Source of the DNA: an uncultured Pelagibacteraceae bacterium
GTDB taxonomy: Bacteria > Pseudomonadota > Alphaproteobacteria > Pelagibacterales > Pelagibacteraceae
Direction of reading: 5' to 3'
Assembly: GCA_902520685.1 (NCBI GenBank)
Contig: CABYPE010000002.1
Span: forward strand, 1 to 64,000
Length of the DNA: 64,000 bases
Shown: piece by piece, positions 47,586 through 56,831 of the stretch
Layout: each line of letters opens with the position of its first letter
How positions within the stretch are numbered: the stretch's first letter is position 1
Translations under genes and position numbers: made by a program
Notes under the pieces: model-generated
What the model was told of the DNA's origin: nothing
The model's database searches: none
What the model saw: the letters and a program-made list of their open reading frames with translations, nothing else

Positions 47586-48838
47586 TAGTGTGCTACAGCT
47601 GCTGCACCATGTTCGTCCACAAGATCACCACTAACGAATCTGTTTATGTTAAAAGCAGCATTTAGTTTGTGAGGTTCATCATTAGCTATAGTATGAGCAA
47701 ATAAATCACCTGATCCAGGTGTTGCTTTAAACCCTCCAGTTCCCCAACCACAATTAAAATACAAACCTTTAATAGAAGTTTTGCTTATTATTGGACTAGC
47801 ATCAGGACAAATATCAACAATTCCTCCCCATTGTCTTAACATTCTCATTCGACTGAATATTGGATATAATTCTAAAATCGCATTTAAAGTTCCCTCAACA
47901 ATGTCATGACTTCCTTTTTGAGAGTAAGACACATAATCATCAGTTCCAGCGCCAATCACCAGCTCTCCCTTGTCAGATTGACTAACATAAGCATGAACAG
48001 CATTAGACATAACAACAGTATCAATAATTGGTTTAACAGGTTCAGAAACTAAAGCTTGTAAAGGTTTACTTTCTAGTGGAAGTTTTAAACCTGCCATATT
48101 TGCAATAACACTTGAATGTCCAGCTGCAGCAACACCAATTTTATTTGTTTTTATAAAACCTTTTGTTGTTTCTAAGCCTTCAACAGTATCGCCATTTCTT
48201 TTGATACCCTTAACTTCACAATTTTGAATAATATCAACACCCATTTCATCAGCACCTCTTGCATAGCCCCAAGCAACAGCATCATGCCTTGCAGTACCAG
48301 CTCTTCTTTGTAAAGTTCCTCCTAAAACAGGATATCTTATGTCTGGAGATGTATTAATTATTGGGCAAAATTTTTTAACTTCATCAGTTGATAAATAGAC
48401 AGCATCAATACCATTCAATCGATTAGCATGAGTTCTTCTTTTTAAATCTCTAACATCCTGAAGGTTATGAGCTAAATTCATAACTCCTCTTTGACTAAAC
48501 ATTATATTATAATTTAATTCTTGTGATAATCCTTCCCAGATTTTTAAAGCATGATCATAAAGACCTGCACTTGCATCCCATAAATAATTTGATCTTATAA
48601 TTGTTGTATTTCTTCCAGTGTTACCACCACCAATCCATCCTTTTTCTAAGACAGCAATATTTTTCATATTATGCTTTTTTGCTAAGTAATAAGCAGTAGC
48701 TAAACCATGACCTCCACCACCAACAATAACAGCTTCATATTCTTTTTTAGGTGTAGGATCTTTCCATGCTTTCCCCCAATTCTCATGGTAAGAAAATGCA
48801 TTTTTGATAAGTGAAAAAATTGAGTATTTTTTTTTCAT
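47585..48838 (-). CDS. soxB: Sarcosine oxidase beta subunit (Met at 48838 preferred over 48871)
   Basis: [52 protein letters not shown]. Confidence 0.96.
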
Positions 48839-48901
48839 ATAATTTTGAATAATTACTTTATAAATACACAATATTCAATACAATCAAAAGTACCAAAATA
48901 T

Positions 48902-48993
48902 GGAAGAGTGGGTGAGAGGCTTAAACCAGTCGTTTGCTAAATGACCGTGCGAGGAAACTTGTACCGAGGGTTCGAATCCCTCCTCTTCCGCCA
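48902..48993 (+). tRNA. tRNA-Ser (anticodon GCU), CCA encoded
   Basis: 7-bp acceptor GGAAGAG/CTCTTCC, anticodon stem GTCGT/ATGAC with loop TTGCTAA, long variable arm, T-arm GGTTCGAATCCC, 3' G + CCA. Confidence 0.95.
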
Positions 48994-49059
48994 GTAAATT
49001 ACTTTTTAATCTCAAAATTGAAAAAACAATAATTTAATAAAAAATTAAAAAGTCGATTT

Positions 49060-49072
49060 TAAATTTCAAAAT
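49060..49072. repeat. 13-bp direct repeat TAAATTTCAAAAT, left copy
   Basis: Identical to 52731-52743; the two copies bracket the asnB/NTase/Ppd cassette. Confidence 0.5.
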
Positions 49073-49087
49073 GATACAACGATCATC

Positions 49088-50956
49088 ATGTGTGGAATTG
49101 TTGGTATAGTTGATCCTTTAAACAAATTTGAGAATAAGAAAAGATTAATAAAAGAATTAAATGATTCACTAATTCATCGTGGTCCAGATGACTCAGGATA
49201 CTATAGTGATCATTTGTTGAGTTTAGGTTTTAGAAGATTATCAATAATTGATCTAGAAAATGGAAATCAACCAATTATTAAACATAACATAGTCACTATT
49301 TTCAACGGTGAAATATACAATTATATCCAATTAAGAAATGAATTAATTGAATTAGGTGCAGAATTTTATTCTAAAAGTGATAGCGAAGTTGTTGCTAATG
49401 CTTTTTTATTTTGGGGAATAGAGTGTTTAAAAAAATTTGATGGGATGTTTGCGATTTGTTTTTATGATCGAAATAAAAAAAAAATTTTTCTCGCAAGAGA
49501 TAGAATGGGTATAAAGCCACTTCATTATACCATCGTAAACGATACATTATTTTTTTCTTCAGAAGTATTAACTTTAAGTAAAATTCCTGGATTTAAAAAA
49601 GAAATTAATTTGAATGCAGTATCTTCATATTTATCATTTAGATATCCTGTAGATGATGACAATTTATTTTTTAAAAGAATTTATAGAGTACAAAGTGGAT
49701 CTTATATAAAAGTTAATTTAGACAACTCAATAACTTTGAAAAAACAAAAATATTGGGACATACCTCAAAATAATAATGAGTATAATTCATCAGATACAAA
49801 ACATAATGAAGAAAAGTTAGATAGTTTGCTTCAAAACTCAGTAAATAATCAGTTAGTTAGTGATGTACCATTAGGAGTTTTGCTATCGGGTGGTCTTGAC
49901 TCATCATTAATAGCATCAATTGCCTCAAAATATAAAGAACAATTAAACACATATTCAGTATCGTTTCTTGAAAAAGATTATGATGAAAGTAATAAAGCTA
50001 AACTGGTATCAAAGCATATTGGATCTAAACATTATGATTTAAAAATTGATAAAAATTTTTTTTTAGAAAATTTACAAACTATAATCGATATAAAAGGTTC
50101 TCCAGCATCTATTCCACATGAGTTTGCACTTTATTGTTTATGTAAAGAAATTAAAAAAGAGGTTTCAGTTCTACTTAGTGGAGAAGGCGCTGATGAATTT
50201 TTTGGTGGTTACTCTAGAGTTCAAAAATCAGCTTTTGATTTTAATAAGACCAATCTTTTTTTTGGAAATTTTAATAAGAAGAAATTTTTTAATTTTTTTT
50301 TAGATCGCTATAAATGGTTTTCTGTTAAAGAAAAAAATATATTATTTTCTACTGATTCAAAAAAAATAATTGATAATGAATTAGTTTATAGGCCATTTGA
50401 AAATATTTTTAAGAAATCAAACAAAAATCAAACCTATAATATAATTCTAGAGTCTTTTCAGACAAATCATATTAAAGCTCTTTTAGATAGACTTGATTTA
50501 ATGTCGATGAAATCAGGAATAGAGGCAAGAGTCCCTTTTTTAGACCATAAAATAATAGAGTTTATTAACAGTTTATCATTTAATAATAAAATTAAATGGA
50601 AGTCTCCAATACATAAATATTTAAGTTTTTTATCATCAAGTGAAAAATATACAGAAATAAACGACACAAATAAATTTTTGTTAAGATCATGCTCTAAAAA
50701 ATACTTACCCAAGAGTACTACCAGTGAAAAAAAACTTGGTTTTCCTCTCCCAATGAACGATTGGATGAAAGATGAAAAGATAAAGCAAATTTATATGGAT
50801 AATGAGACATTAAATAGAGGAATTTTTGATAAAAAATTTTTATTAGAACTGTTTGATTTTAACAATAAGAAAAAAACAAATTCAAATTTTGATTTTTCAG
50901 GAAAGAAAATTTGGATGTTAGTTAATATAGAGTTATGGATTAGAAAATTTTTATAA
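49088..50956 (+). CDS. asnB: Asparagine synthase (glutamine-hydrolysing) family protein
   Basis: MCGIVGIVDP class II glutaminase; LSGGLDSSLIASIA PP-loop. Confidence 0.9.
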   Translation: MCGIVGIVDPLNKFENKKRLIKELNDSLIHRGPDDSGYYSDHLLSLGFRRLSIIDLENGNQPIIKHNIVTIFNGEIYNYIQLRNELIELGAEFYSKSDSEVVANAFLFWGIECLKKFDGMFAICFYDRNKKKIFLARDRMGIKPLHYTIVNDTLFFSSEVLTLSKIPGFKKEINLNAVSSYLSFRYPVDDDNLFFKRIYRVQSGSYIKVNLDNSITLKKQKYWDIPQNNNEYNSSDTKHNEEKLDSLLQNSVNNQLVSDVPLGVLLSGGLDSSLIASIASKYKEQLNTYSVSFLEKDYDESNKAKLVSKHIGSKHYDLKIDKNFFLENLQTIIDIKGSPASIPHEFALYCLCKEIKKEVSVLLSGEGADEFFGGYSRVQKSAFDFNKTNLFFGNFNKKKFFNFFLDRYKWFSVKEKNILFSTDSKKIIDNELVYRPFENIFKKSNKNQTYNIILESFQTNHIKALLDRLDLMSMKSGIEARVPFLDHKIIEFINSLSFNNKIKWKSPIHKYLSFLSSSEKYTEINDTNKFLLRSCSKKYLPKSTTSEKKLGFPLPMNDWMKDEKIKQIYMDNETLNRGIFDKKFLLELFDFNNKKKTNSNFDFSGKKIWMLVNIELWIRKFL

Positions 50957-51651
50957 TGCAAGCAATAATATTAGCAGCAGGAGTTGGTTCTAGAATAAAG
51001 AAATTTAGCCTAAAAAAACATAAATCTTTAATTAAAATTGGAAATAAATCTTTGTTAACTCGAATGGTAGATTATTTAGTTGATATAAACATAAATGACA
51101 TTTTAATTGTTACAGGATACAAAAGTGAACAAATAAAAAGTGAAATTAAAACAAAAGCAAAATATATTTATTTTCCAAGATATAGATCGTCTAATAATCT
51201 ACAAACATTATTACATGTAAGAAATAAAATAAAGGGTCCTTTTTTATGCTTATTTTCAGATATTTTTTTTGATAAAAAAATTTTGTTGAATTTAAAAAAC
51301 AATAAAAAGGATATTTGTTTAGCTATTGATACTAGAAAAGTAAGAAAAGACACAATGAGAATTATAAAAAAAAATGATAAAATAATTGATATAGGGTCAC
51401 AAATTGATGTTTCAGATGGTGATGGAAATTTTATAGGTATTGCAAAATTTTCTAAAATGGGTGCAACAAATCTAAAAAAGAGTTTAAATTATTATAAAAA
51501 TAATTATAAAGATTATTATACTTTAGCGTTAAAACGATTGATTAAAAAAAAGAAAAAAGTTAATTATCTAGATGTTAAATCTTTATTTTGGACTGAAATT
51601 GATTTTTATAAAGATTATTTAAAATTAAAAAAAAAATATGAAATCAAGTAA
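50956..51651 (+). CDS. Nucleotidyltransferase, resembling the PEP-mutase-associated CTP/phosphonate nucleotidyltransferase (PntC-like) group
   Basis: IILAAGVGSRI N-terminus, FLCLFSDIFFDKKIL, GDGNFIGIAKFSKMGA; translationally coupled to asnB and the ThDP decarboxylase. Confidence 0.7.
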   Translation: MQAIILAAGVGSRIKKFSLKKHKSLIKIGNKSLLTRMVDYLVDININDILIVTGYKSEQIKSEIKTKAKYIYFPRYRSSNNLQTLLHVRNKIKGPFLCLFSDIFFDKKILLNLKNNKKDICLAIDTRKVRKDTMRIIKKNDKIIDIGSQIDVSDGDGNFIGIAKFSKMGATNLKKSLNYYKNNYKDYYTLALKRLIKKKKKVNYLDVKSLFWTEIDFYKDYLKLKKKYEIK

Positions 51652-52726
51652 ATTTTTAGATGTATTTTATAAAAATAAAATAAGATATTTTTCTGGTGTT
51701 CCAGACTCTTGCTTATCTGAATTAATTAATTCCCTGATGTCAAAAAGATATAATAAAAAATTTAAACATACTATTGCTCCTAATGAAGGAATTGCCATCT
51801 CTTTAGCTGCTGGTAATTATTTAGCTACTAATCAAGTTCCTTGTATTTATTTACAAAATTCAGGTTTTGGGAATGCTACAGATCCAATTACAAACCTTTG
51901 TTCACGAAATGTTTATGATATTCCATTAATTTTGATAATAGGTTGGCGTGGTAAACCAGGAACAAAAGACGAGCCTCAACACATAATGCAAGGTACAAGT
52001 ATACGTAAGTCGCTTAAGAATTTTAACATAAGTTATTATGATTCTGCAAAAATAAATTTAAATAAATTATCAAAAATTATTAATCAAACTAAAAAAAAAA
52101 ATAGAATTACAGCAATATTAGTGGCTAAAAATTATTTTGATAAAATTAATCAAAAATATAGAAAAAAAAATTTTATTAAGAGATCTGAAGCTATCAATTC
52201 ACTGCTAACCAATTTAAAAATAGATTATAAAATTGTTTCATCTACAGGTTTTAATTCAAGAGAGATTTTGTTACAAAATTCTATTAAAAAAACTGCTTTC
52301 TATTTAATTGGTGCTATGGGTCATACTTTGGGTGTATCTTTGGGGTCTCTTAATCATAAAAATAAAACTCTTGTATGTGTTGATGGTGATGGATCTTTTT
52401 ATATGCATCAAGGAAGTTTTGCTCTTTTAAAAAAAAATCATAGGTTAGTTTATTTACTTTTAGATAACTCATCACATGAAAGCGTAGGAGTAGTAAATAT
52501 TGATTATAAATTAAAAAGTTTTAAAGATTTCGCTAAATCTGTAGGTTTCAAAAAATATGTGAAAATAGATAAATTAAGCCAACTTGATAAGTGTTTTAAG
52601 AGTTTAGTATTAAAAAATTTACCAATTTTTATCCATGTTAAAACCTCGATTGAAGTTAACAAAAATTTACCAAGACCTACTCTAAAAGAACTTCAAAAAT
52701 TTAAGAATGATTTTATAAAAGAATAA
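51638..52726 (+). CDS. Phosphonopyruvate decarboxylase-like ThDP enzyme
   Basis: SGVPDSCLSELI, NEGIAISLAAGNYLAT, GWRGKPGTKDEPQHIMQG, DGDGSFYMHQGS...LLLDNSSHESVG (ThDP motif). Confidence 0.82.
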   Translation: MKSSKFLDVFYKNKIRYFSGVPDSCLSELINSLMSKRYNKKFKHTIAPNEGIAISLAAGNYLATNQVPCIYLQNSGFGNATDPITNLCSRNVYDIPLILIIGWRGKPGTKDEPQHIMQGTSIRKSLKNFNISYYDSAKINLNKLSKIINQTKKKNRITAILVAKNYFDKINQKYRKKNFIKRSEAINSLLTNLKIDYKIVSSTGFNSREILLQNSIKKTAFYLIGAMGHTLGVSLGSLNHKNKTLVCVDGDGSFYMHQGSFALLKKNHRLVYLLLDNSSHESVGVVNIDYKLKSFKDFAKSVGFKKYVKIDKLSQLDKCFKSLVLKNLPIFIHVKTSIEVNKNLPRPTLKELQKFKNDFIKE

Positions 52727-52730
52727 ATTG

Positions 52731-52743
52731 TAAATTTCAAAAT
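52731..52743. repeat. 13-bp direct repeat TAAATTTCAAAAT, right copy
   Basis: Identical to 49060-49072; just after the cassette and touching the end of slt. Confidence 0.5.
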
Positions 52744-54959
52744 TAATATAGCGGTTCATCTTTAAAATAATTTTTCATTTTGATTGGTTTTTGTTCAAGT
52801 ATATATCTATAAACATTGTAATTTTCTAAAACTCTTTGAACATAATTTCTTGTTTCTCTAAATTTTATTAGCTCAATCCAATCAACGTAATTAATTTTTC
52901 TTTTTTGAGGATCACCATTAATCTTTCTCCAATATTTAACTCTATTAGGTCCAGCATTGTAAGCAGCAATGGCATAAGGATATGCTCCATCATAATTCAA
53001 TATTAAGCCTGCAATATAATGTGAACCTAAATTGATATTATATTCTGGATCTGTAGTAAGTCTTGATTTGACATAAGGTAACTTTGCCTGTTTAGCAACT
53101 AGCTTAGCTGTATACGGCATTAATTGCATTAATCCTTTTGCTCCTGCATGGCTATTCGCACTTAAATCAAATTCACTTTCTTGTCTTATTATTGATAAAA
53201 TAAACGCACTATCTGGAATTTTTCTTCCATTTATGTATGTGGGCGTACTTATAATCGGATAATTATATTTATTATGAAATCTTTTTTCATAAGAAGCAAT
53301 TTTTGCAATTTGTATTGCAAAATCAAATCTCTCTATATTAGTAGAAAGTTCAGATGCAAGAATTTCACTTCCTTTCTCTACATTATCATTTGCTAGATGT
53401 CTTAAAATAAATTTAGTATATTTATCTTCTTTAAGTTCATCCAAAAGGTAAACTATTTTTACTAATTCTTTAGAATAAAAATCAATTCTGTATTTTTCAT
53501 CAACCTTCATGTCTGTAGAAAGTTCAAAATTTTCATTTGGATTAAGTTCTAGGAAGGCAAGTTGACCATAATATGTTGTAAGATATTTAGAAGCTTCGTT
53601 AAACCATTTAATTGAATTTTCATCGTCTCCAAGAGATCTATAAGATTTTGCAAGCCAATAAGCTCCTCTTGATGTACTAATTGGATAACTTACATTGTTA
53701 TAAAAATTTTGAAAATGTTCTTTAGATAATAACGGATCTTCTAGGAAACTAAGAGCAATCCAACCACTCATCCATTCAGCCGCGGCATAATCTGCACCTT
53801 CGGTCATACCATGATTGCTTGATATTTTATATGCAAGTTCATATTTTTTCTTATAAATTAATGATCTTGAAATAATTTCTCTTTCAACCCACCACCTATC
53901 TGGTCTTACTAAATAATCTTTTGTATTCTTGATCTTAAGTAAAATTTCCGTAGAATCATCAACCCGACCTCTTTTTCGTCTCCATTTAAGTCGATCATAA
54001 TTTAAACCTGAATCATTTTTAAATTTTTGTGGAACATTTTTTATAGCTTGATCAACTCCATAAGATTTACTCATTAGTAATTGTCTTGCATTATAAAGAA
54101 GTTCATAATCTTTTGGTAAATATCGGAGCATTCTTTTTAGATCCCAATATTTATTTTCCCAAGCTAGGTAATCTGCTCTTTTAATATAATCATCGGCATT
54201 AAGATATTTTCTAAATTTTTTTCTAAAAAATCTTAGATCACTTTTACTTAATTCTGCAGTTATCCAGCCATCTTTGATAAACTTTTTACCTTTTTCAACT
54301 TGTCCTGATAAAATATAACTTTCACCTAATATCATTTTACCAAAACCACTTAACGGATCAGTATAAGAAAATGATTCTATAATTTTTTTTGCTGAAACAT
54401 TATTTGTTGATAGCTTATGTTCTGCTAAATATTTTATACGTCCTATTCTTGGATAATCCTTATTTTTATCGATAAATATTTTATAATCATAATAAGAGGC
54501 TTTATTTCCTTTTGTAAGAAGGTGTCTCCATTGAATAAAATCGTATATAGACTTATCTTTAGCTTTTTTGGAAATTTTTAAAGCAGAAGACCATTGTCCT
54601 TTTTTCATTTCTGAAATTGCTCTTTTCGCTAAACTGAAGTCTTTTTTATTATAGTATTTTGATATTTTAATATCTTTGGTTTTTTGAGATCCTGCAATTA
54701 ATGGTTTCTTTTTTGGTACTAAGAACTTAGGTTTAATATTTTTTTCTTGAACTATTTCCTCAATAGGAATTTTCTTATCAATAACAATTGGTTTTGCTAT
54801 TGGTTTAATAATATTTATTAAAATTTTCTTTTTTAATTCCTGATCTGTCAAAGAAGGTTTTTTAATTGGTATTATATTGCTTTCGTTGGAAGCTGTAATA
54901 TTGAGATTTAAGAAAATAAATAATATCGTGCTAATAAATAATCTTAACTTTTTAGGCAT
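52743..54959 (-). CDS. slt: Soluble lytic murein transglycosylase
   Basis: SLT domain IIRQESEFDLSANSHAGAKGLMQLMPYTA; AYNAGPNRV. Confidence 0.93.
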   Translation of the reverse strand: MPKKLRLFISTILFIFLNLNITASNESNIIPIKKPSLTDQELKKKILINIIKPIAKPIVIDKKIPIEEIVQEKNIKPKFLVPKKKPLIAGSQKTKDIKISKYYNKKDFSLAKRAISEMKKGQWSSALKISKKAKDKSIYDFIQWRHLLTKGNKASYYDYKIFIDKNKDYPRIGRIKYLAEHKLSTNNVSAKKIIESFSYTDPLSGFGKMILGESYILSGQVEKGKKFIKDGWITAELSKSDLRFFRKKFRKYLNADDYIKRADYLAWENKYWDLKRMLRYLPKDYELLYNARQLLMSKSYGVDQAIKNVPQKFKNDSGLNYDRLKWRRKRGRVDDSTEILLKIKNTKDYLVRPDRWWVEREIISRSLIYKKKYELAYKISSNHGMTEGADYAAAEWMSGWIALSFLEDPLLSKEHFQNFYNNVSYPISTSRGAYWLAKSYRSLGDDENSIKWFNEASKYLTTYYGQLAFLELNPNENFELSTDMKVDEKYRIDFYSKELVKIVYLLDELKEDKYTKFILRHLANDNVEKGSEILASELSTNIERFDFAIQIAKIASYEKRFHNKYNYPIISTPTYINGRKIPDSAFILSIIRQESEFDLSANSHAGAKGLMQLMPYTAKLVAKQAKLPYVKSRLTTDPEYNINLGSHYIAGLILNYDGAYPYAIAAYNAGPNRVKYWRKINGDPQKRKINYVDWIELIKFRETRNYVQRVLENYNVYRYILEQKPIKMKNYFKDEPLY

Positions 54960-55002
54960 AATCTTTTTGTATGTGAATCAATAATTTATGTTATAAGTAT
55001 TT

Positions 55003-55887
55003 ATGTTTAAAGGTTCAAATGTTGCTTTAATTACGCCATTTAAAGATGATAGGCTTGATATAGACAGCTATATAAAGTTAATACATTTTCATATAGAAAA
55101 TGGAACCTCTGGTTTAGTTCCTGCTGGAACAACAGGAGAATCACCCACCTTAAGTCATGAAGAGCATCAAAAAGTAATAGATTTGTGCATTCAAGAGAGT
55201 GGTGGAAAGCTACCTGTAATAGCTGGAACTGGTTCTAATTCAACTCAAGAGGCAATTTCTCTGACAGCTCATGCAGAAAGAGCTGGAGCAAACGCAGCTC
55301 TTATAGTTACTCCTTATTATAACAAACCAACTCAAGAAGGACTATATCAACATTATAAAGCAATTAATGATAAATGTGGTTTACCAATAATAATATATAA
55401 TATTCCTGGAAGATCAGTAATTGATATGTCGGTAGAAACCATGACAAGACTCTTTGAATTAAAAAATATAGTTGGGGTTAAAGACGCAACAGGAGATCTT
55501 GATAGAGTTGATAAACAATTAAAAGCAATGGGAAAAGAATTTATTCAATTAACTGGTAATGATGATAATGCCTTAGAGTTTAATAAAAGAGGAGGTGTTG
55601 GAACAATAAGTGTAACTGCAAATATAGCACCTAAACTTTGTTCTGAGTTTCAAACATTATCAGTTCTCTCAGATGATAAATCAAAAAAAGAGGCTAAAAA
55701 TTTTGATAAAATTTTACAACCACTTCATAATGCAATGTTTATTGAAAGTAATCCAAGTCCAGTAAAATTTGCTGCGAAACAATTAGGTTTATGTGATGAT
55801 GAGGTTCGATTACCTTTAGTAAAAGTAACTGAACAATCAAAGGAAATAATTAATAAAGCTTTGTGGTCCACTAAATTAATTAAATGA
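55003..55887 (+). CDS. dapA: 4-hydroxy-tetrahydrodipicolinate synthase
   Basis: [41 protein letters not shown]. Confidence 0.96.
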
Positions 55888-56354
55888 TCAAAAAAGCCAA
55901 TTCTGGTTTAAAAATTGTTTGTTTAAATAGAAAAGCAAGTTTTAATTATTTTTTTGAAGATTTAATTGAAGCTGGAATTGTTCTTAAAGGATCTGAAATA
56001 AAATCAGTTAGAGAAGGGAAAGTAAATATAGCAGACTCATATGCTGTTGAAAAAAAAGGAGAGTTATTTCTAATTAATTCCCATATTGCTAAATATAAAC
56101 AAGCAAATATTTTAAATCATGACCCTAAAGATGAAAGAAAATTACTACTCAATAAAAAAGAAATTAATAAGTTAATTGGAAAAATGCAAAGAGATGGATT
56201 TACAATAGTTCCGACTAAGATGTATTTTAGAAAAGGTAAGGCCAAAGTTGAGATAGCTGTCGCTAAGGGAAAAAAACATTATGATAAGAGAGCTACAAAG
56301 AAAGATAGAGATTGGAATCGAGATAAAGCAAGATACATAAGAAAATCAAGCTGA
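55884..56354 (+). CDS. smpB: SsrA-binding protein
   Basis: [50 protein letters not shown]. Confidence 0.97.
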
Positions 56355-56831
56355 ATGTTATATATTGGAATAGGATCAAATCTAGGAAATAGAATTAATA
56401 ATATTGAAAAAGCAAAATACTTATTAAATCTGAATGGTGTCAATATTATTAAATCTTCCTCTTATTATGAAACCTTATCTTGGCCAGATTCAAGTAAACC
56501 AAAATTTATTAATATAATACTTCAATCTGACACAAAATTTTCACCTAAAAAATTTCTCAAAATATTTAAATCAATTGAAAAAAAACTTGGTAGAAAGAAG
56601 AGTAAAAAAAATTCACCTCGTATATGTGATATTGATATTATTTCTTACTCCCAAAGAATTATATCAGGTAACATCACAATACCTCATAAGAGAATGCATA
56701 AAAGAAACTTTGTATTAATACCATTATATGAATTAAATAAAACTTGGCAGCATCCAAAAATGAAAAAAAACATAAAAAAATTAATTTTTTCCTTACCAAT
56801 AAAGGATATTACGTCTATTAAACAAATTTGA
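56355..56831 (+). CDS. folK: 6-hydroxymethyl-7,8-dihydropterin pyrophosphokinase
   Basis: YIGIGSNLGNR; RICDIDIISY; PHKRMHKRNFVLIPLYEL. Confidence 0.9.
   Translation: MLYIGIGSNLGNRINNIEKAKYLLNLNGVNIIKSSSYYETLSWPDSSKPKFINIILQSDTKFSPKKFLKIFKSIEKKLGRKKSKKNSPRICDIDIISYSQRIISGNITIPHKRMHKRNFVLIPLYELNKTWQHPKMKKNIKKLIFSLPIKDITSIKQI

Follow-up and report, generated by a model that had tools for sequence, protein, structure and literature searches.

The three overlapping, co-directional genes at 49088-52726 of the window (the whole stretch of 64,000 nucleotides that was analysed, from an uncultured Pelagibacteraceae bacterium) very probably constitute the downstream half of an island by which SAR11 bacteria make and tailor phosphonates, with PEP mutase (PepM) provided in trans from another contig, C18, of the same genome. 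The original prediction had likened them to a phosphonate pathway without PEP mutase, leaving a choice between a PepM at a distant locus and an atypical pathway acting on another substrate, e.g. a sulfopyruvate-like or other 2-oxo acid. The absence of PEP mutase stands for the window, where a reading by eye of the listed open reading frames (ORFs) recognised no PepM, AEP transaminase or phosphonoacetaldehyde reductase; it fails for the genome, and it is the distant-locus branch that is supported.

Gene layout and the location of pepM

The predicted coordinates and overlaps of the three genes proved exact on re-check: asnB and the nucleotidyltransferase (NTase) gene share the single base 50956 in a stop/start overlap, and the NTase gene and ppd overlap by 14 nt. 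The assignments to AsnB-like, PntC-like and phosphonopyruvate-decarboxylase-like (Ppd-like) proteins were upheld by profile scores and, for the NTase, by a fold match. The features are the following.

48902..48993, + strand: tRNA-Ser(GCT) (ARAGORN, Rfam), with the cassette inserted immediately 3' of it
49060..49074, + strand: left copy of a direct repeat of 15 bases, TAAATTTCAAAATKA (match count against shuffles)
49088..50956, + strand: AsnB-like glutamine-dependent amidotransferase, 622 aa (TIGR01536, 434.7 bits; motifs intact)
50956..51651, + strand: PntC/LicC-type nucleotidyltransferase, 231 aa (full-length match to Tde-PntC 6pd1; fold match to PntC 6pd2)
51638..52726, + strand: Ppd-like ThDP decarboxylase, 362 aa (TIGR03297, 285 bits; in a clade with PepM-linked Ppds)
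52731..52745, + strand: right copy of this repeat, located where the relative G685 has 3.75 kb holding pepM and a CptA-like gene

The repeat that brackets the trio has two matches in the window against 0.03 expected, a number reached in none of 100 shuffles. A promoter scan gave no excess over chance.

The assembly from which the window comes is 73% complete (0.9 Mb in 47 contigs). The search of this whole genome with profile models, which the prediction had proposed as a check, revealed a PepM on contig C18 (G000:C18:1725-2576) that scores 391.8 bits with TIGR02320, for a curated cut-off of 319.55, and carries EDKKGLKKNS, a form of the EDKX5NS motif. It is fused to a cytidylyltransferase (434 aa for the fusion). 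Its neighbours are a gene for a 327-aa PhnW-like aminotransferase (57.9 bits with TIGR03301, far under the cut-off), a second small cytidylyltransferase gene and a CDP-alcohol phosphotransferase gene running to the contig end, where C18 stops mid-cluster. The oddity of the missing PepM is therefore explained by a pepM located elsewhere: in this assembly ppd and pepM lie on different contigs and are not adjacent, and the Ppd of the window is the sole one. Contig C5 has two further PEP_mutase matches; of these, the one examined is of the methylisocitrate-lyase type, lies beside genes for a citrate/methylcitrate synthase and a PrpD-like protein, and is not PepM. Beside the C18 pepM cluster there is also an aspartyl/asparaginyl beta-hydroxylase-like gene (L004:3543-4454), a distant homologue of which (32%) adjoins the AsnB-NTase-PepM-Ppd operon of another SAR11 genome, G376.

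Insertion site and a pepM-bearing relative

The cassette has been inserted into the genome at the 3' end of the tRNA-Ser gene. A synteny survey of the tRNA-Ser/slt interval found the site empty in 20/20 relatives examined, slt ending about 6-20 nt from the tRNA gene, and an island at this position was seen only in the window and in the single cell AG-447-B20 (G685, L129/L133), the closest cassette-holding relative. There the order is AsnB-NTase-Ppd-(cytidylyltransferase-PepM)-(799-aa CptA-like protein) (L129), so that pepM is the very next gene, an arrangement which, according to the prediction itself, would make the cassette routine. Blastn aligns the window with G685 in two collinear stretches, 48835-52735 and 52741-56397 of the window, and the sole break between them corresponds to the ∼3.75 kb of G685 that hold pepM and the 799-aa gene and are absent from the window. 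Of the repeat, G685 has the left copy only (its 13-base core), the right copy being absent at the corresponding point. An att-type repeat of the tRNA end was looked for at the opposite end of the island and none was found; carriage by a phage was also considered and rejected, the matches being distant ones only (26-34% identity).

The gene for the 799-aa protein, which adjoins pepM in G685 (L129:13056-15455), encodes an N-terminal CptA/EptA-like phosphoethanolamine-transferase domain of the sulfatase fold, followed by a C-terminal region that resembles, by eye, glycerophosphodiester phosphodiesterase; this protein is a candidate phosphonate transferase.

What the window lacks is exactly the block formed by pepM and the CptA-like gene, and the junction carries a direct repeat, which raises the question whether the trio is a decaying remnant: these two genes would have been deleted, the others would no longer be used, and C18, which ends mid-cluster, would represent another pathway, complete in itself, whose Ppd is unassembled. 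We consider this unlikely. The three ORFs are intact, with their catalytic motifs. Their products are 83, 81 and 68% identical to those of G685 (AsnB, NTase and Ppd, respectively), with pairwise dN/dS values, from a codon comparison, of about 0.10, 0.12 and 0.23, which indicate intact genes under selection; Ppd is admittedly the least constrained of the three, but by relative-rate tests against G685 the lineage of the window is not significantly accelerated (chi2 of 0.5, 3.5 and 3.3), on which ground relaxed selection on Ppd was rejected. Moreover, the 3.75-kb difference may reflect a gain of pepM in G685, because the sister relationship of the Ppds of G685 and G376 is not shared by their PepM genes.

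The decarboxylase and its association with PepM

With the Ppd profile TIGR03297 the window protein scores 285 bits (E 8e-85), which is below the curated cut-off of 312.5; the homologue of G685, encoded next to pepM, is also under it (281.6), and that of G376 passes (345.3). The profiles of the two sulfopyruvate decarboxylase subunits give it 64 and 62 bits only, and identity as a sulfopyruvate decarboxylase was rejected. The translation contains the ThDP GDGS...DN motif (VDGDGSFYMHQG...LLDN), and the best solved structure is 9iz3, a putative phosphonopyruvate decarboxylase. Judged by its sequence, the enzyme is closer to Ppd than to sulfopyruvate decarboxylase. In the Ppd tree it falls in one clade with the Ppds of G685 and G376, both of them PepM-linked (support 100/99). 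The members of this clade have Asp82, Asn86, Ile122 and Asp276, against Asn, Ser, Thr and Asn in at least 46 of the 47-49 other SAR11 Ppds; at the first three positions it is from nearly all of the 49 others that they differ.

A survey of 397 genomes of the family Pelagibacteraceae found Ppd in 51, PepM in 52 and both in 48, where 6.7 would be expected (Fisher p 2e-53, computed ignoring shared ancestry). In 35 of the 48 the two genes lie within 150 bp of each other, the usual third gene being that of an iron alcohol dehydrogenase or of an aminotransferase of the C18 type. G376 (AG-430-J04) has AsnB-NTase-PepM-Ppd contiguous in one operon, and G692 (AG-920-C15) has AsnB-NTase-PepM, then the contig end.

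These observations bear on the possibility that the cassette acts on a different, sulfopyruvate-like, 2-oxo acid, independently of any phosphonate pathway. Such a substrate would suit a locus devoid of pepM, and it could be read into the clade-specific substitutions, but G685 and G376 have these substitutions too, and there ppd directly adjoins pepM. Since, in addition, PepM is present in the genome, Ppd is almost never found without PepM in the family, and the profile scores strongly favour Ppd, this reading is poorly supported and we regard it as highly improbable. The atypical PepM-free pathway is rejected along with it.

The C18 PepM groups with aminotransferase-linked PepMs (support 99/97), apart from those of G685 and G376. 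Because the window Ppd belongs with the Ppds of the latter two, the ppd and pepM of this genome are, from the trees, of different ancestry and at two loci. This genome is also the only one seen here to combine an AsnB-type cassette with the C18-type aminotransferase, for which G685, G376 and G692 have no match. A different combination is found in G043, a 99%-complete SAR11 genome in one contig: it has a pepM (G043:C1:785167-786018, L124), no Ppd detected with the window protein at E 1e-20, and three asparagine-synthase homologues, and it is a candidate for use of phosphonopyruvate without decarboxylation.

AsnB and the nucleotidyltransferase

AsnB scores 434.7 bits with the asparagine synthase model TIGR01536 (cut-off 267.1), and its catalytic motifs are intact: an MCG N-terminus (Cys2 of the glutaminase), the SGGLDSS P-loop and SGEGADEFFGGY, as in the asparagine synthase superfamily. 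It is the only full asparagine synthase of the genome, and five of the seven relatives checked have none; a role as housekeeping asparagine synthetase is therefore unlikely.

The NTase has the PF12804/PF00483 fold and belongs to the NTP_transferase / MobA-like NTP transferase families. It matches Tde-PntC (6pd1) over its full length by phmmer, and its AlphaFold model (pLDDT 79) has PntC 6pd2 as best PDB fold match (E 6.5e-15), many sugar nucleotidyltransferases ranking close behind; the predicted likeness to PntC is thus sustained. Its nucleotide motif, GVGSR-X8-HK, has His for the Pro of the consensus GXG(T/S)RX4-8PK, G376 having PK. Across four family members there is no variation at Arg13, Lys23 or the acidic residues Asp102, Glu214 and Asp216. 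In Tde-PntC the amine of AEP is contacted by two glutamates (PMC6697681). These residues (Glu104 and Glu196) align here with Phe100 and Lys193 in a phmmer alignment of low identity, a tentative correspondence which hints that the substrate may be other than AEP.

When the genome collection was scanned for this NTase family, the only matches came from five species of Xanthomonas, three SAR11 cells and a single contig of Candidatus Magnetomicrobium. Four of these five Xanthomonas loci encode PepM and Ppd near the NTase and AsnB. The genes of the Xanthomonas loci (L137-L141) are pepM, ppd, an AurF-like N-oxygenase gene, the NTase gene, asnB, an aldehyde dehydrogenase gene and a TauE-type exporter gene, with PepM and Ppd outside the L141 stretch; in X. 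hortorum, which has the N-oxygenase, dehydrogenase and exporter genes, two IS-like insertions break the ppd region. A literature search found no description of asnB in phosphonate clusters, nor of such a Xanthomonas cluster. With AsnB and the NTase beside PepM/Ppd in both SAR11 and Xanthomonas, the two look like a recurring phosphonate-tailoring pair. That they are ordinary sugar-nucleotide/LPS genes, the one amidating uronic acids and the other a sugar-1-phosphate nucleotidyltransferase, is hardly credible: the NTase does match sugar nucleotidyltransferase profiles and AsnB homologues do occur in polysaccharide loci, but in SAR11 as in Xanthomonas the pair is strictly linked to PepM, to Ppd or to both, and PntC is the top fold match.

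Proposed pathway

We infer a route in which the C18 PepM, acting in trans, would convert PEP into phosphonopyruvate and the window Ppd would convert the latter into phosphonoacetaldehyde. This could then yield 2-aminoethylphosphonate, by the PhnW-like aminotransferase of C18, or an acid or amide made with AsnB. AsnB most likely amidates a carboxylate, either of the phosphonate or of an acceptor glycan. Activation of the product to a CMP-phosphonate, for attachment to a surface glycan or lipid, would fall to the PntC-like NTase, to the cytidylyltransferase part of the PepM fusion, or to both, plausible last enzymes being the CptA-like transferase in G685 and the CDP-alcohol phosphotransferase in the genome of the window. 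The predicted activation of a phosphonate for a surface polymer by the NTase is supported, as is the PepM at a distant locus. Surface phosphonoglycoproteins have been shown for Prochlorococcus and proposed for SAR11, which includes pepM producers (PMC8931226), and nucleotidyl activation predominates in PepM clusters (PMC6697681).

Three points count against this scheme: the score of the window Ppd under the TIGR03297 cut-off, the alignment of the NTase without the AEP-amine glutamates, and the lineage of the C18 PepM, which is other than that of the window Ppd and normally travels with its own Ppd. Such a Ppd could be encoded in the 27% of the genome that the assembly lacks. We also entertain, as a speculation with the odds against it, that AsnB and NTase (with Ppd) form a mobile phosphonate-tailoring module which moves independently of PepM, makes an activated phosphonate amide (e.g. 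CMP-phosphonoacetamide-like) rather than CMP-AEP, and in this cell depends on a PepM from a different lineage, encoded at a second locus.

SAR11 are among the ocean's most abundant cell types and a leading candidate for the origin of marine phosphonates, compounds that feed the release of methane. The AsnB/NTase pair suggests that something other than plain 2-aminoethylphosphonate is made. As to surveys, the absence of pepM from one contig should not be taken as a PepM-free pathway, and split pathways can escape those relying on adjacency only.

Comparison with known systems

The cassette represents a known kind of island, the SAR11 phosphonate (phosphonyl-tailoring) island, in rearranged form. 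Two features are still unusual: the pairing of AsnB with the NTase, and the presence in one genome of a ppd and a pepM that differ in ancestry and occupy two loci. The G685 island has the same insertion site, gene order and overlaps, and differs by the extra pepM and the 799-aa CptA-like (sulfatase-fold) gene. The SAR11/Prochlorococcus clusters (Acker et al. 2022, PMC8931226) come from the same order of bacteria, likewise have pepM with ppd, lie in islands and are thought to decorate surface glycoproteins; here, in contrast, ppd and pepM are at two loci and of different lineages, AsnB and a second NTase accompany ppd, and the island is at tRNA-Ser. With the phosphonyl-tailoring cytidylyltransferases of the PntC type (Rice et al. 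2019, PMC6697681; PDB 6PD1/6PD2) the NTase shares the fold, the GXG(T/S)R...K nucleotide motif and, in relatives, linkage to pepM, whereas it has His for the motif Pro, lacks the amine-contacting glutamates in sequence alignment and is paired with AsnB. The combination of a fusion between PepM and a PF01467 cytidylyltransferase with another NTase nearby, of the PF12804 type, has already been described (PMC6697681), and it is the same here. Finally, the Xanthomonas pepM-ppd-AurF-like-NTase-asnB-aldehyde dehydrogenase-TauE cluster (L137-L140) also has AsnB and the same type of NTase beside PepM/Ppd, but identities are 31-36% and its N-oxygenase-like, aldehyde dehydrogenase and exporter genes are all absent from the SAR11 cassette.
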